A stretch of 32,098 bases of DNA, taken from Anaerolineae bacterium. GTDB lineage: Bacteria > Chloroflexota > Anaerolineae > Aggregatilineales > Phototrophicaceae. Position numbers and translations under genes: made by a program. Shown piece after piece: positions 10,606 through 20,908 of this stretch (position 1 is the stretch's first letter; each line of letters opens with the position of its first letter). Below the pieces are notes generated by a model. It saw nothing but the letters and a program-made list of their open reading frames with translations. It did not search any database and was not told where the DNA came from. The stretch lies in the NCBI GenBank assembly GCA_013821665.1, contig JACDGI010000011.1:1-32098 (forward strand). The letters are read 5' to 3'.

Positions 10606-12264
10606 ATGAAACGCATATTTCGGTTTGCAGGTTGTTTAAGTTTGGCGGCGTTGGCTATCGGCCTGATGCCGGTTGCCGGACAAGATGCCAAGTTGATGTC
10701 CTTGGCCGCGCCCAATTGTGACTACGGCGGCGAAATCAAGAGCATCGAAGCAGTGGATATGGCAACGGTCAAATTCACACTGTGCTTCCCTGATCCGGCC
10801 TTTACCTCTAAAGTGGTGCAGGACGCGTTCGGTATCCAATCCTCGGATTATCTGGAAAAAACCGGCGGCAAGGGTGATCTGCTCACCACACCGATTGGCA
10901 CCGGCCCTTATAAGCTGGAAAAGTGGGATCGTGGCAACGAAATGGATATGACCCGCTTTGATGATTACTGGGGTGACAAAGCCAAGGCCAAGACACTGAT
11001 TTTCCGCTGGAATCCCGAAGCGACACAGCGTTTTACCGAGTTACAAGCCGGTAACATCGACGTGTTTGATAATCCCGCGCCCAACGACTTCGATGCGATT
11101 AAGAGCAATCCGGATTACGAACTGCTGACGCGCGAGGGTTTGAATACCTTGTACCTCGCCATGAACAACAACTTCCCGCCGTTTGATAACGTCAAAGTGC
11201 GGCAGGCGGTGTCGTATGCCATTGATACGCAGCGCATTGTCGATAACTTCTTCCCACCGGGATCGAGCGTGGCGACCCAACTCTTGCCAGAAGCCATCTT
11301 CGGCTATAGCAAGGAAGTTACCGGTTATAAACTGGATGCTCAGAAGGCGATGGACTTGCTCGACCAAGCCGCCAAAGATGACGGTGTGAAGCTGCCGATT
11401 GAATCGACCATCAGCTACCGTAATGTGGTGCGTGGTTATCTGCCGCAGCCGCCGGTTATCGCCCAAGATTTACAGGCACAGTTGAACGGCCTCGGCGATG
11501 GCAAATACTTCAATATCAAGGTGCAGGAAGTCGAATCTGGCACGTTCATTTCGGAAGCGCTCGGCGGTAAGTATCCGCTGCATCTGTTGGGCGGCGGCGC
11601 GGATTATCCCGATGCGAGCAACCTTTTCGGCTTCTGGTTCCAAGGTGCGCCTGCTTCCTTTGGTAAGGATTATAAGGACATCGAAGCAGCCGTTGCCGAA
11701 GGTGGACGTTCGACTGATGACGCAGCCCGCTCTGCCGCTTACTTGAAGGTCAACCAACTGGTGCAATCAGAAGCGCCAATGGTGCCGATTGCCCACGGTG
11801 GTTCGGCTATCGCTTACAAAGCTGGCATCGAAGGCGCACAGGCCAGCCCACTGCGCCGCGAGTTGTTCTATGTCACCAAGAATCCGAACAGCGACCAATT
11901 GGTGTTTATGCAAGGCGCGGAACCGATTATGCTGTACTGTGCCGATAACTCGGACGACGAAACCTCACGCGCTTGCGTGCAGATGTTCGAGTCGCTGACG
12001 GCCTTCAAAGTCGGCAGCACCGAGATCGTCCCGTCGCTGGCCGAAAGTTGGGATGTCAACACTGATGGCACCGAGTGGACATTCCACCTGCGCCAAGGTG
12101 TGAAGTTCCATGATGGTTCGACGCTGGATGCCAACGATGTGGTCGAAACCTATGTCGTCCAATGGGACGCATCCAATCCGCTGCATACCGGCAACGGTCA
12201 GGGCTTCACCTACTGGGCTGCTTACTTTGGCGCGTTCCTGAACGCTCCCAAAACCACGAGTTAA
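10606..12264 (+). CDS. Extracellular solute-binding protein family 5 (peptide/nickel type) with apparently permuted domain order
   Basis: Signal peptide; PIGTGPYKLEKWDRGNEMDMTRFDDYWG, FDNVKVRQAVSYAIDTQRIV, and C-terminally VPSLAESWDVNTDGTEWTFHLRQGVKFHDGSTLDANDVV. Confidence 0.93.
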   Translation: MKRIFRFAGCLSLAALAIGLMPVAGQDAKLMSLAAPNCDYGGEIKSIEAVDMATVKFTLCFPDPAFTSKVVQDAFGIQSSDYLEKTGGKGDLLTTPIGTGPYKLEKWDRGNEMDMTRFDDYWGDKAKAKTLIFRWNPEATQRFTELQAGNIDVFDNPAPNDFDAIKSNPDYELLTREGLNTLYLAMNNNFPPFDNVKVRQAVSYAIDTQRIVDNFFPPGSSVATQLLPEAIFGYSKEVTGYKLDAQKAMDLLDQAAKDDGVKLPIESTISYRNVVRGYLPQPPVIAQDLQAQLNGLGDGKYFNIKVQEVESGTFISEALGGKYPLHLLGGGADYPDASNLFGFWFQGAPASFGKDYKDIEAAVAEGGRSTDDAARSAAYLKVNQLVQSEAPMVPIAHGGSAIAYKAGIEGAQASPLRRELFYVTKNPNSDQLVFMQGAEPIMLYCADNSDDETSRACVQMFESLTAFKVGSTEIVPSLAESWDVNTDGTEWTFHLRQGVKFHDGSTLDANDVVETYVVQWDASNPLHTGNGQGFTYWAAYFGAFLNAPKTTS

Positions 12265-12327: not shown

Positions 12328-13161
12328 TTATGCCGACGAGTTTTCGGGTTTTACGCCTAACATACAGAATTGTCGATCATCAGCAGAGGCTGGATTCAAC
12401 TCAAACTGGTGGAAAAGTTGAATGTTGGTAAAGCCTGCTTCCTGATACATCTGGCGGGCTTCTGCCTGTGTATACCAACGCAGTTCAGGTGACTGCCTGT
12501 GTTCTTCACGGTCGATTATTTTGCCGTTCAGTTCAACCTCAAAGCGTTCTTCCATATGCCACCACTGCCGAGCCGGTTCACACCAACTGTGTACCCAACT
12601 GCGTACGACTGCGCCGTCTTCAGGTCGAACTTTCTCAAACCTCAATCGCCAATCGTAATCCGTCGGTTCCCCTTCTGCCCAGTCAAAATAGAAAGGCGTG
12701 ACGAACACGCCGCCCGGCTGTAAGTGGGCAAATAAATGTTGTACAGCTTCGAGAGCAGTGTCCCGATTTGTAAGTAGTTGCAGAACGCTCGACGGGCCGA
12801 TGATCGTTCGATACTTGCGCGGTAGGTCAAGCGTCTGCATCTCCTGCTGATACAGATTGGGTGACAGTTTCAGCGCCTCCGCTTTGGCCCGGCAGATGGC
12901 AATCATCTCAGGTGAATTATCCATCCCGTCAATGTCGATGCCCTGTTGCAGATAATCAAGAATTAGACGGCCTGTTCCGCAGCCAAGATCGAGAACAGGT
13001 TCGCCATACCGCCGAATGATTTCCAGATAGAAAGAGCGGTCAGGCCAGTTCGCTATATGACTGCGCCCCAAATCCCATGTGGAGGCAACCATTCCATAGT
13101 AATCATAATTGCGAGTTGTCATCGGGTTCATTTCCTTTTGTAGTTCGTTTATTCTGTTCAA
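12328..13161 (-). CDS. Class I SAM-dependent methyltransferase
   Basis: GEPVLDLGCGTGRLILDYLQQGIDIDGMDNSPEMIAICRAKA; start may be internal ATG (MNPMTTRNYDYYG). Confidence 0.9.
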   Translation of the reverse strand: MNRINELQKEMNPMTTRNYDYYGMVASTWDLGRSHIANWPDRSFYLEIIRRYGEPVLDLGCGTGRLILDYLQQGIDIDGMDNSPEMIAICRAKAEALKLSPNLYQQEMQTLDLPRKYRTIIGPSSVLQLLTNRDTALEAVQHLFAHLQPGGVFVTPFYFDWAEGEPTDYDWRLRFEKVRPEDGAVVRSWVHSWCEPARQWWHMEERFEVELNGKIIDREEHRQSPELRWYTQAEARQMYQEAGFTNIQLFHQFELNPASADDRQFCMLGVKPENSSA

Positions 13162-13232
13162 ATGTGTCCATTTCGATTGTTGCGAACGTTATTGAAGACT
13201 GTTTCATTCGGATAGACCGATCTATTCCAGCC

Positions 13233-15035
13233 TTATATCTCTACTTGCATATTCATGTTATATAAATTGGCATAGACACCGTTCTGTGCCAGCAGTTCCT
13301 CATGTGTACCTTCTTCATGCACACCGTCATCGGTCAGCACCACAATCCGTTGGGCGTTGCGGATGGTCGATAAGCGGTGGGCGATGACCAACATGGTGCG
13401 GTTGTCGGTCAGGCGATCCATTGAAGCTTTAACCTCCTTTTCACTCTCATTGTCCAAAGCGCTGGTGGCTTCATCAAAGATAATCACCGGCGGATCTTTG
13501 AGGAACACCCGCGCGATGCTCAAACGCTGTTTTTGGCCCCCTGAGAGCTTCACGCCACGCTGACCAATATCGGTGTCATAACCATTCGGTAGCCCCATGA
13601 TAAAGTCGTGGGCGTTGGCCTTCTTAGCCGCCGCGATGATCTCTTCGTGCGTGGCATCCAATTTGCCGTAGCGGATATTGTCGGCCACGTTTCCCGCAAA
13701 CAGATAAACATCCTGCTGTACGAGGCCGATGTTCTGCCGCAGCGAACGGGTACTCACATCTTTGATGTTGGTGCCGTCCAACAAAATTTTGCCTTCTGTC
13801 ACGTCATAAAAACGTGGAATAAGCGAGCAGAGTGTGGTCTTGCCCACACCCGATGACCCGACCAGCGCCACATATTCACCGGCTTTGATGTCCAGCGAAA
13901 TATTCTTGATGACGTAATTGTAGTCTTCCTTATACTTGAAGCTCACATCTCGAAATTCCACGTTGCCTTGAACCCGCGTCAGTTCAATTGCGTCCGACGC
14001 ATCTTGAATATCCGGCTGCACTTCCAGAATTTCCATGAAACGGGCAAATCCGGTTGAGCCTTCTTGATAGACCCGCGCGAAGTTCATGAAGCGTTTAATC
14101 GGCTCGATGAGGATGCCCACACCGAGTAAAAAGGTCAGTAAGTCGGCTAAATCCAGCGAGGCATGAACGATGGCGATGCCACCGAATATAATCACGGCAA
14201 CCGTGATGAGCTGGGTGAAAGCATCCATCCCATTAAAGAAATAGGCTTCACTCAGGTAACTTTCGCGCCGGCTTTGGACGAAGCGTTTGTTTTCATACGA
14301 CAGCTTGGACTTTTCCATCGCCTCGTTGGTGAAGGATTTAACCACCCGAATGCCAGCCAGCGTATCTTCCACCTGCGCGTTAATATCACCGATGCGATCT
14401 TTGCTTTTACGCAGGGCGATATTCATGCGCTTGTTGAAGTAAACGGCGTACACCGCGATGATCGGCAGAAACAGAAAGACAATCAGCGTCAGTTGAATGT
14501 TGATGCGAGCAAGGATGATGAACACACCCAGCCCCTTCAAGGCTCCGATGGCGAAATCCTCTGGCCCGTGATGGTAAAACTCCGACAGCGCGAACAAATC
14601 GTTGGTGATGCGCGTCATCAGTTGGCCGGTTTTTTGTTCGTCATAGAAGCTGAACGAGAGATTTTGTAGATGGTCAAATAACTCATCACGCATATCGCTT
14701 TCCATCTTCGCGCCCATCATATGACCCTGATAATCCACAAAGGCATTACAGATGGTCAGAATAATCACCAGCACCAACATCACCACGCCCATCATATAGA
14801 TTTGGTTGAGCGCATCGGGGTTACTGCCATCGAGGACATTCTTGGTGATATAGCCCGCGCACAGCGGCAGGATCACCGTTATGCCCGACACGATGAAAGC
14901 ACAGGCCAAGTCGGCAATCAGCAGTCCGATATGTGGGCGGTAGTACGACAGGAATTTCTTCATGCGTGCGTTCAAAAATTGGCGATCATCAATCGCCTTA
15001 TGGTCGATGAACGACTGTGTTTGTGCTTCAGTCAT
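13233..15035 (-). CDS. ABC exporter, fused TMD-NBD (MsbA/lipid A or multidrug type)
   Basis: Walker A GSSGVGKTT, signature LSGGQKQRLSIARV, Walker B PPVIIFDEATSALD, N-terminal TMD. Confidence 0.96.
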   Translation of the reverse strand: MTEAQTQSFIDHKAIDDRQFLNARMKKFLSYYRPHIGLLIADLACAFIVSGITVILPLCAGYITKNVLDGSNPDALNQIYMMGVVMLVLVIILTICNAFVDYQGHMMGAKMESDMRDELFDHLQNLSFSFYDEQKTGQLMTRITNDLFALSEFYHHGPEDFAIGALKGLGVFIILARINIQLTLIVFLFLPIIAVYAVYFNKRMNIALRKSKDRIGDINAQVEDTLAGIRVVKSFTNEAMEKSKLSYENKRFVQSRRESYLSEAYFFNGMDAFTQLITVAVIIFGGIAIVHASLDLADLLTFLLGVGILIEPIKRFMNFARVYQEGSTGFARFMEILEVQPDIQDASDAIELTRVQGNVEFRDVSFKYKEDYNYVIKNISLDIKAGEYVALVGSSGVGKTTLCSLIPRFYDVTEGKILLDGTNIKDVSTRSLRQNIGLVQQDVYLFAGNVADNIRYGKLDATHEEIIAAAKKANAHDFIMGLPNGYDTDIGQRGVKLSGGQKQRLSIARVFLKDPPVIIFDEATSALDNESEKEVKASMDRLTDNRTMLVIAHRLSTIRNAQRIVVLTDDGVHEEGTHEELLAQNGVYANLYNMNMQVEI

Positions 15036-15168: not shown

Positions 15169-16455
15169 TTACACCTCCACCGAGGGTTGTACTTGAACCA
15201 CAGCCATCGCTGCTGCCGCTGCTGTACGATTATCCGCACGGATGATGCGGCTGTAGAGATACAGCACCGGACTCAAGATCAAGCCGCTGCACATCAGAGC
15301 CGCCCGGATGCCGAGTCGCTCACCAATGAAACCTACGGGTGGGCCACCCACGATTTGTCCGAACGCGTCAACCTGACTGGTCAAGGAGATGACCGTAGCC
15401 CGTACCGACGAATCGATGTGCTGGTTGATCCATGTGGTGTTGATCGGGCCGAGCAGGGTGCGGATCGTGCCGATGCCGATGTTGATGACCACCGCTATCA
15501 CAAAGTTCCCGGCCAAGGCAAACCCGAATAAACTGGCGACTAACAGCGCCGATAAAGCGAATGAGGCCCGTGCTAGCGTTTGACCGCGCTTCATATCGAG
15601 GCGCTTTTCCATCACACGCGTGGCGATACCATTGACCAAGTTGCCCACCAGACCGAGAGCGCCCAACCATACGACCGGTGGCAGCCCATGAAAGTCCGGC
15701 AGGACAAAACTCCGCAGCAAATGAGCATCACCGAGTCGGTCAAAACCCTCGCTGTACAAGCCGACGAAAAGACCGATACCAAGAATGGAGAGCAGCATAG
15801 GCCGCACGCGGATCAATTTCACACCCGCCCGCAGCGTATCCGCCATCTGGCCGAACGTGCTACGTTCCTCGGCTGGTGTGGGATGAAATCCGGTTTCCGG
15901 CATATACAAAACCATGCCGATGGCGATCACCAGAAACAACAAACCCGCCACCAAGATTGGCAGCGTGATCAGCAAGGTAGCAAGGATGATGCCGGTGATG
16001 CTGGCGACGATCCCTAGTAAACTGCTCAGGCGGCTGGAACGCAGGAACAAACCTCCGGCTTCTTCGGTACCAATTTCGTCGATGATCCACGCCTCGGTTG
16101 CCCCACTGGTGAAGGTATAACCGAAGCCCCACACGATATTAAACAGAAGCACACCCACGAAAGTCGGTGAGAAAGCCTGAAACACAAAGGCCGCGCTGAT
16201 GACGAAAAAGCCAATCACAATTGACAGTCGGCGGCTGTAGACATCAGCGATAATTCCGGTGGGAATCTCGCTGATAAAGATGGTGATTTCCAGCGCTGTA
16301 CCGGCTAATACCAATTGGATTGGTGACAGGCCAACAGTCTGAATGGTGAATACCATCATCACCAAGAAGCTCATGGAGAAGCAGATCGACATCCCCACGC
16401 TAAAAAAGAGATAAACATTTCGCGCGTCACGTTTGCGCGGATGAATTGAAAACAT
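15169..16455 (-). CDS. MFS transporter, DHA3-like drug efflux
   Basis: About 12 TM; EIPTGIIADVYSRRLSIVIGFFVISAAFVFQAFSPTF...FGYTFTSGATEAWIIDEIG motif A and flanks typical of DHA3 MFS exporters. Confidence 0.88.
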   Translation of the reverse strand: MFSIHPRKRDARNVYLFFSVGMSICFSMSFLVMMVFTIQTVGLSPIQLVLAGTALEITIFISEIPTGIIADVYSRRLSIVIGFFVISAAFVFQAFSPTFVGVLLFNIVWGFGYTFTSGATEAWIIDEIGTEEAGGLFLRSSRLSSLLGIVASITGIILATLLITLPILVAGLLFLVIAIGMVLYMPETGFHPTPAEERSTFGQMADTLRAGVKLIRVRPMLLSILGIGLFVGLYSEGFDRLGDAHLLRSFVLPDFHGLPPVVWLGALGLVGNLVNGIATRVMEKRLDMKRGQTLARASFALSALLVASLFGFALAGNFVIAVVINIGIGTIRTLLGPINTTWINQHIDSSVRATVISLTSQVDAFGQIVGGPPVGFIGERLGIRAALMCSGLILSPVLYLYSRIIRADNRTAAAAAMAVVQVQPSVEV

Positions 16456-16703
16456 ATCGGTTGTTACTCACTCGTGTTTGGAACAAGGCAGGCGCCCTGT
16501 TCGGCTGTTCATAAACTGAAAAGTCGCTACTCTGCCGGAAACCACGCGCGAAAAAGCAGCGGTCAGGCAGACTCAATAGGTTAGGTCATATCGAGGGTTG
16601 AAGCACGAGTGAGGAGACGAAGGCAGACGTTACGAAGCGGCACTCACAGGAGCGTATCCAAAGCCGATATGAAGTTGTAAGCGTATTGACATCGGAAGTC
16701 TCC
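16453..16703 (-). promoter_or_regulatory. Candidate translation-attenuation leader controlling the MFS gene
   Basis: mRNA-sense elements: leader SD GGAGAC (16703-16698); leader ORF 16692-16630; CTCACTCGTG (16613-16604) perfectly complementary to CACGAGTGAG (16476-16467) just before the MFS AUG; CATATCGG in leader codons (16671-16664) perfectly complementary to CCGATATG (16460-16453) containing the MFS AUG. Confidence 0.5.
16630..16692 (-). CDS. Putative 20-aa leader peptide MSIRLQLHIGFGYAPVSAAS
   Basis: ATG at 16692 with strong SD AAAGGAGAC five nt upstream; stop TAA at 16632-16630; 174 nt upstream of MFS start. Confidence 0.5.
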   Translation of the reverse strand: MSIRLQLHIGFGYAPVSAAS

Positions 16704-17038
16704 TTTCGTTACATAAATAGAAGTTTCGTATAGAACTATAACCGATTTTTGCGGCTGAGTCTATCAGCAAATTATTGATTGCTCATGACCTGTCACACTT
16801 GTCCATTTGTGATGACTCGAACAAACGCGAACATTTCAGCACATCCGCACAAATGCGAATATCATATGGCATAAGATTTTTTAGGTAAAGTCAACAATTT
16901 AACTGTAATAATTTCGTCATCTTAAGGCTAAAGAGGTGAAATGATTGCGCGCTGGCACGCGACGATGTAATATAAACTGCACAATCCTTAATGATTGTAA
17001 ATAAACTTTTTCAAGGACGGTTTTTTTAGGAGGCCAAT

Positions 17039-18775
17039 ATGTATCGTAAGTTGTCAGGAGTTTTAATAGCCCTGTCGGCGGTAATCATACTTGCCGCAGT
17101 AAGTTTGCCAATGGCAGGTGCTCAGGACGCAAACAAAGACGTTTACGGGCGTGATTTGCCAGCAAACGCCGCCCCATATGACCAACAAATTTATACTGGG
17201 TTATGTGATGCAACAGCTAAACAAATTTCATTTTCGTCTGTTATTACTGTCTACTCACGCATCTGCAACACTGATATGTTTGGCGACCCGCTGGTAAATT
17301 TGGATGAGAACCTCAACCTGATCCCCGGCGCAGCCGAAAAGTGGGAATCGTCAACCGATGGCTTGTCATGGTCTTTCCACCTTCGCCCCGGCCAGGTGTG
17401 GAGCGATGGTACCCCCTTGACCGCTAATGACTATGTTGCATCCTATCAATATATGGCTACTCCTTCGAGCGCCTATGACTTCGTGTGGATGTGGCAGGGC
17501 ACCATCAAGAACTGGTCGGAATCGGTTGCCGGTGAAGTCAAGCCGAGCGAAATCGGTGTGACCGCATCCGATGATAACACCGTTGTCGTCACCACCAATG
17601 GCCCGCGTCCTTACCTACCCGGTATGATGTACTTCTGGGCACCTATGCAGGCCAAGGCGCTGACCACCATCGGCCCTAACTATATTCTGGACCCGAAGAC
17701 CAGCGTTTCCTCCGGTCCATTCATGCTGTCAGAATTCAAACCGGGTGAAAGCATCAAGCTGGTTGCGAACCCGACCTACAATGGTTATCGCAAGCCATTT
17801 TTGAAAGAATTCAATTCCTTCTATGGTGACTTTCAAAATGGTAGCTTCCTCGCCTTCCAAAATCATGACATCGATACGGTCAATTACCAACAGCTTAGCA
17901 CTGCCGACTTTGATGTCATTTCCAAAGATCCGGTTCTGAGCGCCAACTATCGCCCGAACTTCGGTGATTTCCGTACCGACTATCTGCTGTTCGATACCTT
18001 CACCGCACCCTTCAATGATAAGAATGTTCGTTTGGCCTTCGCCAAGGCGGTTGATCGTGAATCCATCGTCAAGAACGTCATGGGTGCACAGGTCGCCATT
18101 CCGGCCCACTCGTACCTCGCTCCCGGCTTCCCTGCTTCGGATAGCGATGGTTCGCTGAAGGATATTCAGTCTTATGACTGTCCCGCTGCCAAGAAACTGC
18201 TGTCGGATGCGGGCTTCCCGGATGGTAAAGGTTTCCCGGCGCAGGAACTCGAACTACGTGGCGAAAATGATACACATCAGGCATGGTTCGTAGCCGTCGC
18301 CGGTTCGATCAGCCAATGTTTGGGTGTCACCATCACCACCAACAACATGGTTCAGAAGGATTACATGGACGGTTTGTTGGCACGTCCGACCACCGTTAAG
18401 TTCGGTGCCATCAGCTACGGCATGGACTACCTCGACCCCTCGAACATGTTGGGCGTATGGGTGTCCACAGGTCGTCAATCATGGGCAAATCCTGAGTTCG
18501 ACAAGCTGGTTAATGATGCCAACGTTTTGGTGGGTGATCCTGCCAAGCGCTTGGATATGTACAAGCAAGCCGAAAAGATCTTGGTTGAGGATGTCGGCGG
18601 TATCTTCATTGATCACCGCATTCTGGGTGACCTGTTCCAACCGTATGTCGCCGGTGACTGCTTCCGTCCTGATGCTCAGGGCGTAGGCGCTTGGCACTGG
18701 GGCAATGACTGGTGCTGGGGTTCAATCTACATCACCAAAGATGTAGCCAATTTCAAGACCTATCGCAATAAGTAA
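17039..18775 (+). CDS. Extracellular solute-binding protein family 5 (canonical order)
   Basis: Signal peptide; NLIPGAAEKWESSTDGLSWSFHLRPGQVWSDGTPLTANDYV, SGPFMLSEFKPGESIKLVANPTYNG, FNDKNVRLAFAKAVDRESIV; strong RBS AGGAGG. Confidence 0.95.
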   Translation: MYRKLSGVLIALSAVIILAAVSLPMAGAQDANKDVYGRDLPANAAPYDQQIYTGLCDATAKQISFSSVITVYSRICNTDMFGDPLVNLDENLNLIPGAAEKWESSTDGLSWSFHLRPGQVWSDGTPLTANDYVASYQYMATPSSAYDFVWMWQGTIKNWSESVAGEVKPSEIGVTASDDNTVVVTTNGPRPYLPGMMYFWAPMQAKALTTIGPNYILDPKTSVSSGPFMLSEFKPGESIKLVANPTYNGYRKPFLKEFNSFYGDFQNGSFLAFQNHDIDTVNYQQLSTADFDVISKDPVLSANYRPNFGDFRTDYLLFDTFTAPFNDKNVRLAFAKAVDRESIVKNVMGAQVAIPAHSYLAPGFPASDSDGSLKDIQSYDCPAAKKLLSDAGFPDGKGFPAQELELRGENDTHQAWFVAVAGSISQCLGVTITTNNMVQKDYMDGLLARPTTVKFGAISYGMDYLDPSNMLGVWVSTGRQSWANPEFDKLVNDANVLVGDPAKRLDMYKQAEKILVEDVGGIFIDHRILGDLFQPYVAGDCFRPDAQGVGAWHWGNDWCWGSIYITKDVANFKTYRNK

Positions 18776-18793
18776 GCTCTAAAAGCACACTTA

Positions 18794-18830
18794 AACGGGC
18801 AGGGTGGGAAATAATCCGCCTCTGCCCGTT
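18794..18830 (+). terminator. Stem-loop between SBP and permease genes (attenuator/mRNA stabiliser)
   Basis: AACGGGCAG ... CTGCCCGTT; weak T-tract, so may be partial termination or 3' stabilisation. Confidence 0.65.
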
Positions 18831-19008
18831 CCTTTAGATAAAACAGACAGTTCTCAAAAGATTTTTCGGAGGGACGTACCAAACCTTTTTGAAAAATGAA
18901 CTTGTATAGTCAGAGTAGGTTAAAAAATCTACCGACGCTTTATTTTAAACTTGATAAAATAGATCGACTGGTTTTTAAAATCGTTTTTTCACTGCTGTAG
19001 GAGCCTCA

Positions 19009-19980
19009 ATGACAGGCTATATCATCCGGCGACTCATCGCACTCTTCTTCGTACTCTTTGCTGTTGCAACCGTCGTTTTCTTCTTGATGAACGCGGTCCC
19101 GGGTGGGCCGTTTAGTTTGGGTGAGCGTGGCTACGACGCAGTCGCACTCGCCAATTTACAACGCAAATACGGTCTGGATATACCTGTATTCCAGCGCTAC
19201 ATCAATTATCTGATCAGCGTTTTACACCTCGATTTTGGTTATTCCTTCGCCGTTCCCGGCCAACCGACGGTCATCAGTGTCATCCTTCGCACATGGCCTG
19301 TCACCTTGCAGGTCGGTGTGTATACCATCGTGGTATCCTTTGGCATAGGCTTGATTATGGGCATTGTGGCGGCTTACCGGCGTAATAGCTGGATCGATAA
19401 CCTTGTGACCTTTACGGCCACGCTCGGTATTACATTGCCGAATTTTATTGTCGCCAGCCTATTACTGCTGATCTTTGGCTATCAAAACGGCTGGGGTGAT
19501 CCTAAAAAATGGATTATTGCGCCGTTGTGGCCCAACGGCCCTGCCTTGTTATCATGGGATTATTTCTTGCCGGTCATCACCTATGCGTTGGCTCCTTTAG
19601 CGCTGGTAGCGCGTTACACTCGTTCTAGCGTGGCGGACGCGCTCGGCGCGGATTACATTCGCACAGCCCGCGCCAAAGGCTTGAGCGAACGTGCCATTAT
19701 GGTTCGCCACGTCATGCGTAACGCCTTAATCCCCATGATTACCGTGCTGCTGCCTCAAATACCCAACCTGCTCACCGGTTCGATTTTTATTGAAGTCGTA
19801 TTTGGCATTCCCGGCTTGGGTAAATTCTTCGTGACCAGCATCTTTTCACACGACTACCCCATGATTATGGGTTTGGTGCTGTTGATTGCATTTTTTTGGG
19901 GGATCACCTACCTCATCACGGATATTTTATACACACTGATCGACCCGCGTGTACGTATAAGCGGATCGGGGATCAGCTAA
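19009..19980 (+). CDS. ABC transporter permease, DppB/OppB type
   Basis: MTGYIIRRLIALFFVLFAVATVVFFLMNAVPGGPF; ADALGADYIRTARAKGLSERAIMVRHVMRNALIPMITVL EAA loop. Confidence 0.96.
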   Translation: MTGYIIRRLIALFFVLFAVATVVFFLMNAVPGGPFSLGERGYDAVALANLQRKYGLDIPVFQRYINYLISVLHLDFGYSFAVPGQPTVISVILRTWPVTLQVGVYTIVVSFGIGLIMGIVAAYRRNSWIDNLVTFTATLGITLPNFIVASLLLLIFGYQNGWGDPKKWIIAPLWPNGPALLSWDYFLPVITYALAPLALVARYTRSSVADALGADYIRTARAKGLSERAIMVRHVMRNALIPMITVLLPQIPNLLTGSIFIEVVFGIPGLGKFFVTSIFSHDYPMIMGLVLLIAFFWGITYLITDILYTLIDPRVRISGSGIS

Positions 19981-19981
19981 T

Positions 19982-20908
19982 ATGGAAAATAAAGCGACCG
20001 TTGAAGGCACTGTGAAACCTGCTGCGCCTGTCACCTTGCGCGAAACCATCGTACAGCGTTCGCTTTGGATGGACGCTTTGCGACGTTTCCGCCGCAACCG
20101 TTTGGCAATGGCCGGTTTGGTTGTGCTGGCGATTTTGCTGCTGGTGGCAATCTTCGCTGATGTCATCACACCCTTCCCTTATGACCGCGTCTTTCTGAAC
20201 TTGCGCGCCAGTACTTTACCGGGGGTTGATCCTGCGCATCCGCTCGGCTTGGATACCTCCAGTCGTGATTATCTATCGCGCTTGATTTACGGTGCCCGAA
20301 CCTCCATGACCGTTGGCTTACTGGTTCCGATCATTGCCTTCTCGATTGGTATACCCTTGGGTTCGATTTCCGGTTACTTCGGTGGCAAGGTCGATTTCGG
20401 CATCCAACGGGTTATTGATATTGCTACCGCCGTTCCGCCGCTGCTGTTTGCGCTCTTTTTATTGAGCCTCCTCGGTAACGGCCTGCCCAACGTCATTTTT
20501 GTACTCGGTATCACGGGCTGGATTGAATCGACGCGTCTCACGCGAGCGCAGTTCTTGACCTACCGCGAAAAAGAATTTGTGACCGCCGCCCGCGCTTTGG
20601 GCGCAACTGGCCGCGAAATTATCACGCGGCATATTTTGCCAAACGCCATTTCACCCTTATTGATTAACTTCAGCATCGCCATTCCCTTAGCCATTTTTGC
20701 TGAAGCCGGCTTGAGCTTCCTCGGCATCGGCATTTCCGAACCCACGGCCAGTTGGGGCAAGATGGTCGGCGGCGGTATCGGTAATACCATTCGCGTTTAT
20801 TATCATCTGGCGCTCTTCCCAACACTCTTGGTGGCGCTCACGATGCTTGCATTCTCATTTGTCGGCGATGGCTTACAAGAAGCACTCGACCCGAACCGTT
20901 CGCAATAG
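19982..20908 (+). CDS. ABC transporter permease, DppC/OppC type
   Basis: FRRNRLAMAGLVVLAILLLVAIFADVI; HPLGLDTSSRDYLSRLIYGARTSMTVGL; EKEFVTAARALGATGREIITRHILPNAISPL; FVGDGLQEALDPNRS. Confidence 0.96.
   Translation: MENKATVEGTVKPAAPVTLRETIVQRSLWMDALRRFRRNRLAMAGLVVLAILLLVAIFADVITPFPYDRVFLNLRASTLPGVDPAHPLGLDTSSRDYLSRLIYGARTSMTVGLLVPIIAFSIGIPLGSISGYFGGKVDFGIQRVIDIATAVPPLLFALFLLSLLGNGLPNVIFVLGITGWIESTRLTRAQFLTYREKEFVTAARALGATGREIITRHILPNAISPLLINFSIAIPLAIFAEAGLSFLGIGISEPTASWGKMVGGGIGNTIRVYYHLALFPTLLVALTMLAFSFVGDGLQEALDPNRSQ

Follow-up and report, generated by a model that had tools for sequence, protein, structure and literature searches.

The window, a stretch of 32,098 nucleotides from an Anaerolineae bacterium (contig JACDGI010000011.1), contains an MFS transporter gene on its minus strand that is preceded by a short leader ORF and by several segments that can pair with each other (Table 1). 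In NCBIfam, the encoded protein was nearest to TetA(P) (1.3e-90) and Tet(40). It scored 304 bits against TetA(P), for which the NCBIfam cut-off is 750, and shares about 37% identity with annotated TetA(P). Judged by its sequence, the MFS protein is homologous to the tetracycline pumps and stands outside the curated family. Close homologs share the start residue of the window gene (ATG at 16455). Genes for an MsbA-like ABC exporter and a methyltransferase follow on the same strand (12328-15035, minus), and the block of the three is flanked by two genes for family-5 solute-binding proteins and by genes for oligopeptide-type permeases (10606-12264 and 17039-20908, plus). L033, the closest relative, has a methyltransferase-like ORF directly after the MFS gene and no ABC exporter within the next 2.5 kb. 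Since the neighbourhood differs there, the leader appears to track the MFS gene and not a fixed operon.

Table 1. The MFS gene and the elements of its 5' leader in window coordinates
Feature	Position	Strand	Remarks
MFS transporter gene related to TetA(P)/Tet(40)	15169..16455	minus	Pfam MFS_1 5.8e-16; NCBIfam TetA(P) 1.3e-90
Element A'', CCGATATG, includes the MFS start codon; can pair with leader element A	16453..16460	minus	
Arm 4, CACGAGTGAG, purine-rich MFS RBS, predicted to be masked by arm 3	16467..16476	minus	genus-wide covariation
Small hairpin GAACAGGGC-GCCT-GCCTTGTTC directly before arm 4	16481..16502	minus	2 compensated pairs, 4 species
Element A', CGATATGA, putative antisequester partner of A just 3' of arm 3	16586..16593	minus	kept in the 4 closest species
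Arm 3, CTCACTCGTG	16604..16613	minus	predicted to pair with the RBS (OFF) or to be enclosed by the leader pairing (ON)
Leader ORF, MSIRLQLHIGFGYAPVSAAS and stop codon	16630..16692	minus	uORF in 14/15 genus homologs and 41 order homologs
Leader element 2, GUGAGUG (codons 16-18), able to base-pair with arm 3	16639..16645	minus	weakly supported in the window's clade
Leader element A, CATATCGG, codons 8-10; can pair with A' or A''	16664..16671	minus	invariant in the 4 closest species
Conserved codons 1-3, AUG-UCA-AUA, proposed stall site	16684..16692	minus	order consensus AUG-NCA-RYC; codon 2 statistics
Leader Shine-Dalgarno, AAAGGAGAC	16698..16706	minus	strong SD equally placed in relatives
Candidate promoter of the leader transcript, TAGACT-17-TATAGT	16735..16763	minus	consensus scan

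The leader ORF has 20 codons, from the ATG at 16692-16690 to the stop codon at 16632-16630 (minus strand), and its stop lies 174 nt before the MFS start codon. An earlier sequence-only reading of this DNA had described the ORF, its SD and this spacing, together with a 10-bp and an 8-bp pairing to the MFS start region, and all of these are exact as it gave them. The promoter scan returned two promoter-like sites against a chance expectation of 1.3. In the relatives, a box resembling TTGACG-17/18-TATGCT was found before the leader by sequence reading and scans, at a position matching the candidate promoter of the window.

The conservation of the leader was analysed in the MFS homologs, which are encoded by 104 of the 154 genomes of the order at the threshold used, the carriers being mostly Anaerolineae/Chloroflexi MAGs. 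Leaders were chosen by hand from mechanical lists of SD-preceded short ORFs upstream of the homologs. Within the genus, such a uORF was present about 60-300 nt upstream of the MFS gene in 14 of 15 homologs, and over the whole order 41 homologs had one. The leaders of the genus begin with MSV, MSA or MSI, and the remainder drifts. Where the window encodes MSIRLQLHIGFGYAPVSAAS, an 81%-identical homolog has MSIAQLHIGFEDAPVSSS, the 69%- and 66%-identical homologs have MSATIKIHIGSDYGWGVIAG and MSATINVHIGSEYGWGVLTG, and another genus member has MSVFSSFVAQPADEGVAGAR. Across the order, the conserved part is the start of the leader, AUG-NCA-RYC (M-S/T-V/I/A). Codon 2 was NCA, mostly TCA or ACA, in 34 of the 41 leaders but in none of the 67 long ORFs with an SD at the same loci, and codon 3 was mostly RYC. 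An R-L-Q-L-H motif, which had been suggested as the conserved part of the peptide, occurs in the window and is missing from the 81%-identical relative. Since codons 1-3 are conserved instead, nothing points to a nascent-peptide motif of the macrolide type, and the leaders have no conserved peptide motif of the R/K-x-R/K or RLR type. The residues H-I-G are found in the four closest species only, and the peptide near codons 4-7 is not conserved. Substitutions in the leaders of close pairs fell 15/10/15 on the three codon positions, which is not significant and gives no coding signature.

A strict pattern of GGAG, N3-10 and ATGTCAGTCTKC (SD plus AUGUCAGUCUKC) had five matches in the 17 genus genomes, all five before the MFS gene, and none in the control. 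Over the phylum, the SD plus AUG pattern had one match. When it was widened to the order, extra matches appeared that had no MFS gene downstream, and these were judged to be chance. Inspection of upstream regions showed that the leader motif is absent from the large g17 clade and from 20 members of the wider class, and that it is not common to the Paraclostridium tetA(P) or to a Deinococcus homolog; tet(40) is placed directly behind another tet gene. One record titled Bacteroidetes bacterium (JAPUDW010000138.1) has a 69%-identical MFS gene preceded by the leader of the Anaerolineae-type genomes and is probably a mislabelled MAG. In the f8 family, four leaders (L018, L020, L022 and L024) end in an invariant GGGGTGTTGGAGTGTGCC (GVLECA), whereas their second codon varies. 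This invariant end hints that a constraint on the late leader acts on the RNA and not on the peptide.

The masking of the MFS start region was then compared with shuffled sequences. A perfect 10-bp inverted repeat occurred in 1.5% of the 251-nt dinucleotide shuffles, and 0.3% of them had one that placed an arm in the start region; the earlier rough estimate was about 3%. An 8-bp repeat touched the start region in 5.5% of the shuffles and is unremarkable alone, as that reading had also said. The leader RNA folded better than its shuffles (z = -3.4). When the four closest species were aligned by sequence only, RNAalifold recovered both reported helices unguided. The CATATCG:CGATATG helix has seven invariant pairs that include the start codon, and the helix of arm 3 with arm 4 (CTCACTCGTG:CACGAGTGAG) shows compensatory changes. 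In these four species 95% of the helix cells were paired, as against 24-51% in slid controls.

The covariation of the arm 3:arm 4 helix, which the sequence-only reading had proposed to look for upstream of the homologs, extends across the genus. In 13 members, with the 5' arms picked by eye, 92.5% of the cells were paired and 5 of the 10 pairs had changed on both sides, and none of 500 shuffles reached the observed paired cells, changed cells or covariation score. As a measure that does not depend on the choice of arms by eye, the best helix without gaps that the RBS window can form with the UTR was compared with dinucleotide-shuffled UTRs, and this gave a combined p of 3e-8 for the genus and 0.006 for other families. 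Since the species are related and not independent, the shuffles overstate independence and the p values are too favourable. Duplex energies computed with internal loops allowed were also tried and were dropped as too noisy. Rfam returned no family match above the gathering score for the window or seven relatives. We conclude from the comparison of sequences that the conserved helix predicted to mask the MFS RBS is real and not due to chance. Leader and masking helix are both preserved within the genus; their absence from the orthologs would have spoken against a switch.

Pairings that could compete with this helix were analysed next. The alternative pairing of CATATCGG with CGATATGA (A:A') is present and exactly complementary, as described earlier, and persists through one G-U change among the four closest species. 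The start-codon helix CATATCGG:CCGATATG and its competitor CGATATGA were kept in these four species only, so this part of the earlier proposal holds for the window's nearest kin. Several other genus members have GGTGTTG or GGTGCTG in the leader instead, with a matching CAACACC or CAGTGCC just after arm 3. The GGTGTTG:CAACACC pairing covaries with compensatory changes and was equalled in 1 of 500 shuffles, the segments being hand-picked. Together with A:A', it suggests two sequence solutions for one layout, in which a leader element pairs beyond arm 3 and encloses it. The inner pairing of element 2 with arm 3 is weak in the window's clade, and by a simple helix score the leader-UTR pairing was not significant (p 0.09). 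A further proposed pairing, of the leader SD with GUCUCC, exists in the window and is not conserved.

The effect of the ribosome position was analysed by folding. The transcript was cut before the RBS, and a 30-nt ribosome footprint was set at each codon. In the mean of 13 species, the unpaired share of arm 3 rose from 26% for a ribosome at codons 1-3 to 32-36% for codons 4-8 and about 41-46% for codon 10 onwards. When the leaders were shuffled from codon 4, arm 3 was unpaired at a flat 44-47%, and none of 60 shuffled sets reached the observed difference between early and late positions. The difference was slightly reversed in 3 of the 13 species (G008, G006 and G014) and absent in two. Since the shuffles never match it, the leader looks as if it had been selected for holding arm 3 with an early ribosome only, which agrees with codons 1-3 being the conserved stretch. 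The modelling favours a very early stall, which would leave a leader segment free for the anti-SD arm region, over a ribosome that covers codons 8-10. In equilibrium folds of the full leader with the footprint at each codon, the RBS was masked throughout and no consistent opening was observed. Either the switch is kinetic and acts during transcription or the model is incomplete.

We consider it probable that the 5' leader of the MFS gene works as a translation attenuator, with a stall at the first codons as its trigger. When the drug is absent, ribosomes moving through the leader would occupy or unwind the RNA of its middle and late codons; arm 3, being available, would then sequester the RBS and keep the pump off. 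When a drug halts the ribosomes at AUG-NCA-RYC, the middle and late codons would be left free to pair with A' just 3' of arm 3, and also with arm 3, while the RBS is still to be transcribed. With arm 3 captured, the MFS RBS and start codon would be open and the pump would be made. The stalling, its kinetics, the inducer and the transport substrate are steps that we infer for this model. Start-codon arrest of ribosomes is known for tetracycline and retapamulin (PMC13410324; PMC12121999). Since the pump is TetA(P)-like, inhibitors that arrest at the start codon, for example tetracyclines, would be the most fitting inducers, and naming tetracycline-class compounds is our guess by analogy.

Other explanations were weighed against a stall at the first codons. 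The sequence-only reading had compared the locus with erm/msr/tet-type attenuators and had a ribosome stalled on the leader release the start codon. Its leader ORF and sequestered start site are strongly supported by the comparison of relatives, and a ribosome that simply covers codons 8-10 and a nascent-peptide motif are disfavoured. An erm/msr-like peptide arrest at codons 8-10 would free the start codon by covering CATATCGG, an element that does not vary among four species and is complementary to the start-codon segment. Such an arrest is nevertheless quite unlikely, because the peptide at codons 4-7 drifts, H-I-G is confined to the closest species, the order-wide constancy lies in codons 1-3, and a ribosome at codon 10 or later (>=10) leaves the anti-SD arm about as free as in shuffled leaders. 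A structured leader whose uORF is an ordinary one, tuning expression by reinitiation or coupling or sensing temperature or the general translation rate, would need no drug-specific stalling. The insensitivity of the equilibrium folds to the ribosome position and the lack of a coding signature in the leader substitutions are in line with it. We nonetheless regard it as unlikely, given the strong constraint on the first codons, the tuning of the leader to pair arm 3 only with an early ribosome, and the relation of the regulated gene to drug efflux.

The leader pairing might also govern an intrinsic terminator, with the RBS masking being secondary. In the relatives L056 (679-693) and L009 (2824-2807, minus), terminator-like hairpins with T-runs (often TTTGATTC) follow the leader ORF and precede the MFS gene, folding gave them in the leaders G063, G070 and G080, and a hairpin with a T-run precedes the gene in the tetA(P) record L137. 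A scan of the window leader detected no terminator-like site, however, the three closest relatives have weak hairpins only, and the covarying helix covers the RBS and not a T-tract. For the window, transcription attenuation has a low probability, whereas the hairpins of the relatives indicate that the output may differ between lineages, with transcription attenuation there. Chance complementarity beside a spurious uORF could draw on the ease with which shuffles yield the 8-bp match, but conservation and covariation across species already contradict it, and we give it next to no credence.

A stall at the first codons may have a wider meaning. We suggest, tentatively and as a possibility that we rate below even, that attenuators sensing start-codon arrest at AUG-NCA-RYC, and not a nascent peptide, occur throughout this order of the Chloroflexota, where the rest of the leader would be free to evolve as an antisequester, the outputs would be interchangeable, with RBS masking in some genera and a terminator in others, and tetracycline-like efflux would be controlled. 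If the attenuator holds true, it is a drug-responsive leader from a phylum for which our search of the open-access literature found no leader peptides. The leader is preserved across many uncultured genomes, which offer a natural set of variants for finding out how small a part of a leader, here three codons, suffices to sense start-codon arrest. It would also hint that ribosome inhibitors are encountered by environmental Chloroflexota so frequently that an inducible pump is retained.

The kind of attenuator is already known. The earlier reading knew no example of the present leader sequence, and we likewise found no published description of it in the open-access literature. The Clostridia tetA(P) encodes a homologous pump, about 37% identical to the window MFS protein, but the Paraclostridium gene has no M-S/T-V/I/A leader upstream and a terminator-like hairpin instead. 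The leader of the Bacteroides tetracycline-resistance element CTnDOT (Wang et al. 2005), likened here from its description in PMC12121999 and PMC5418344, is under translational control with a very short uORF that would fit start-codon stalling; it differs in having four codons and in belonging to another phylum. The ermC, cat, cmlA and fexA attenuators share the leader ORF and the RBS-sequestering hairpin and act on a downstream gene for resistance or export, which in cmlA and fexA is a phenicol exporter (PMC5418344). Their leader sequences and phylum are different, and in the present leader there is no sign of nascent-peptide arrest. In E. coli toiL-topAI, tetracycline and retapamulin halt ribosomes at the toiL start codon, and this arrest opens and derepresses the uORF-controlled RBS (PMC12121999). 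With toiL the present leader shares the uORF and a conserved N-terminus, and the coding RNA of toiL itself pairs to hide the downstream RBS. toiL, however, controls a toxin-antitoxin gene and involves Rho, whereas the gene controlled here codes for an efflux pump, the RBS would be hidden by a separate arm and the leader would serve as the antisequester. By analogy, the system appears to be most like toiL among the known systems and would work like the ermC, cat, cmlA and fexA attenuators.
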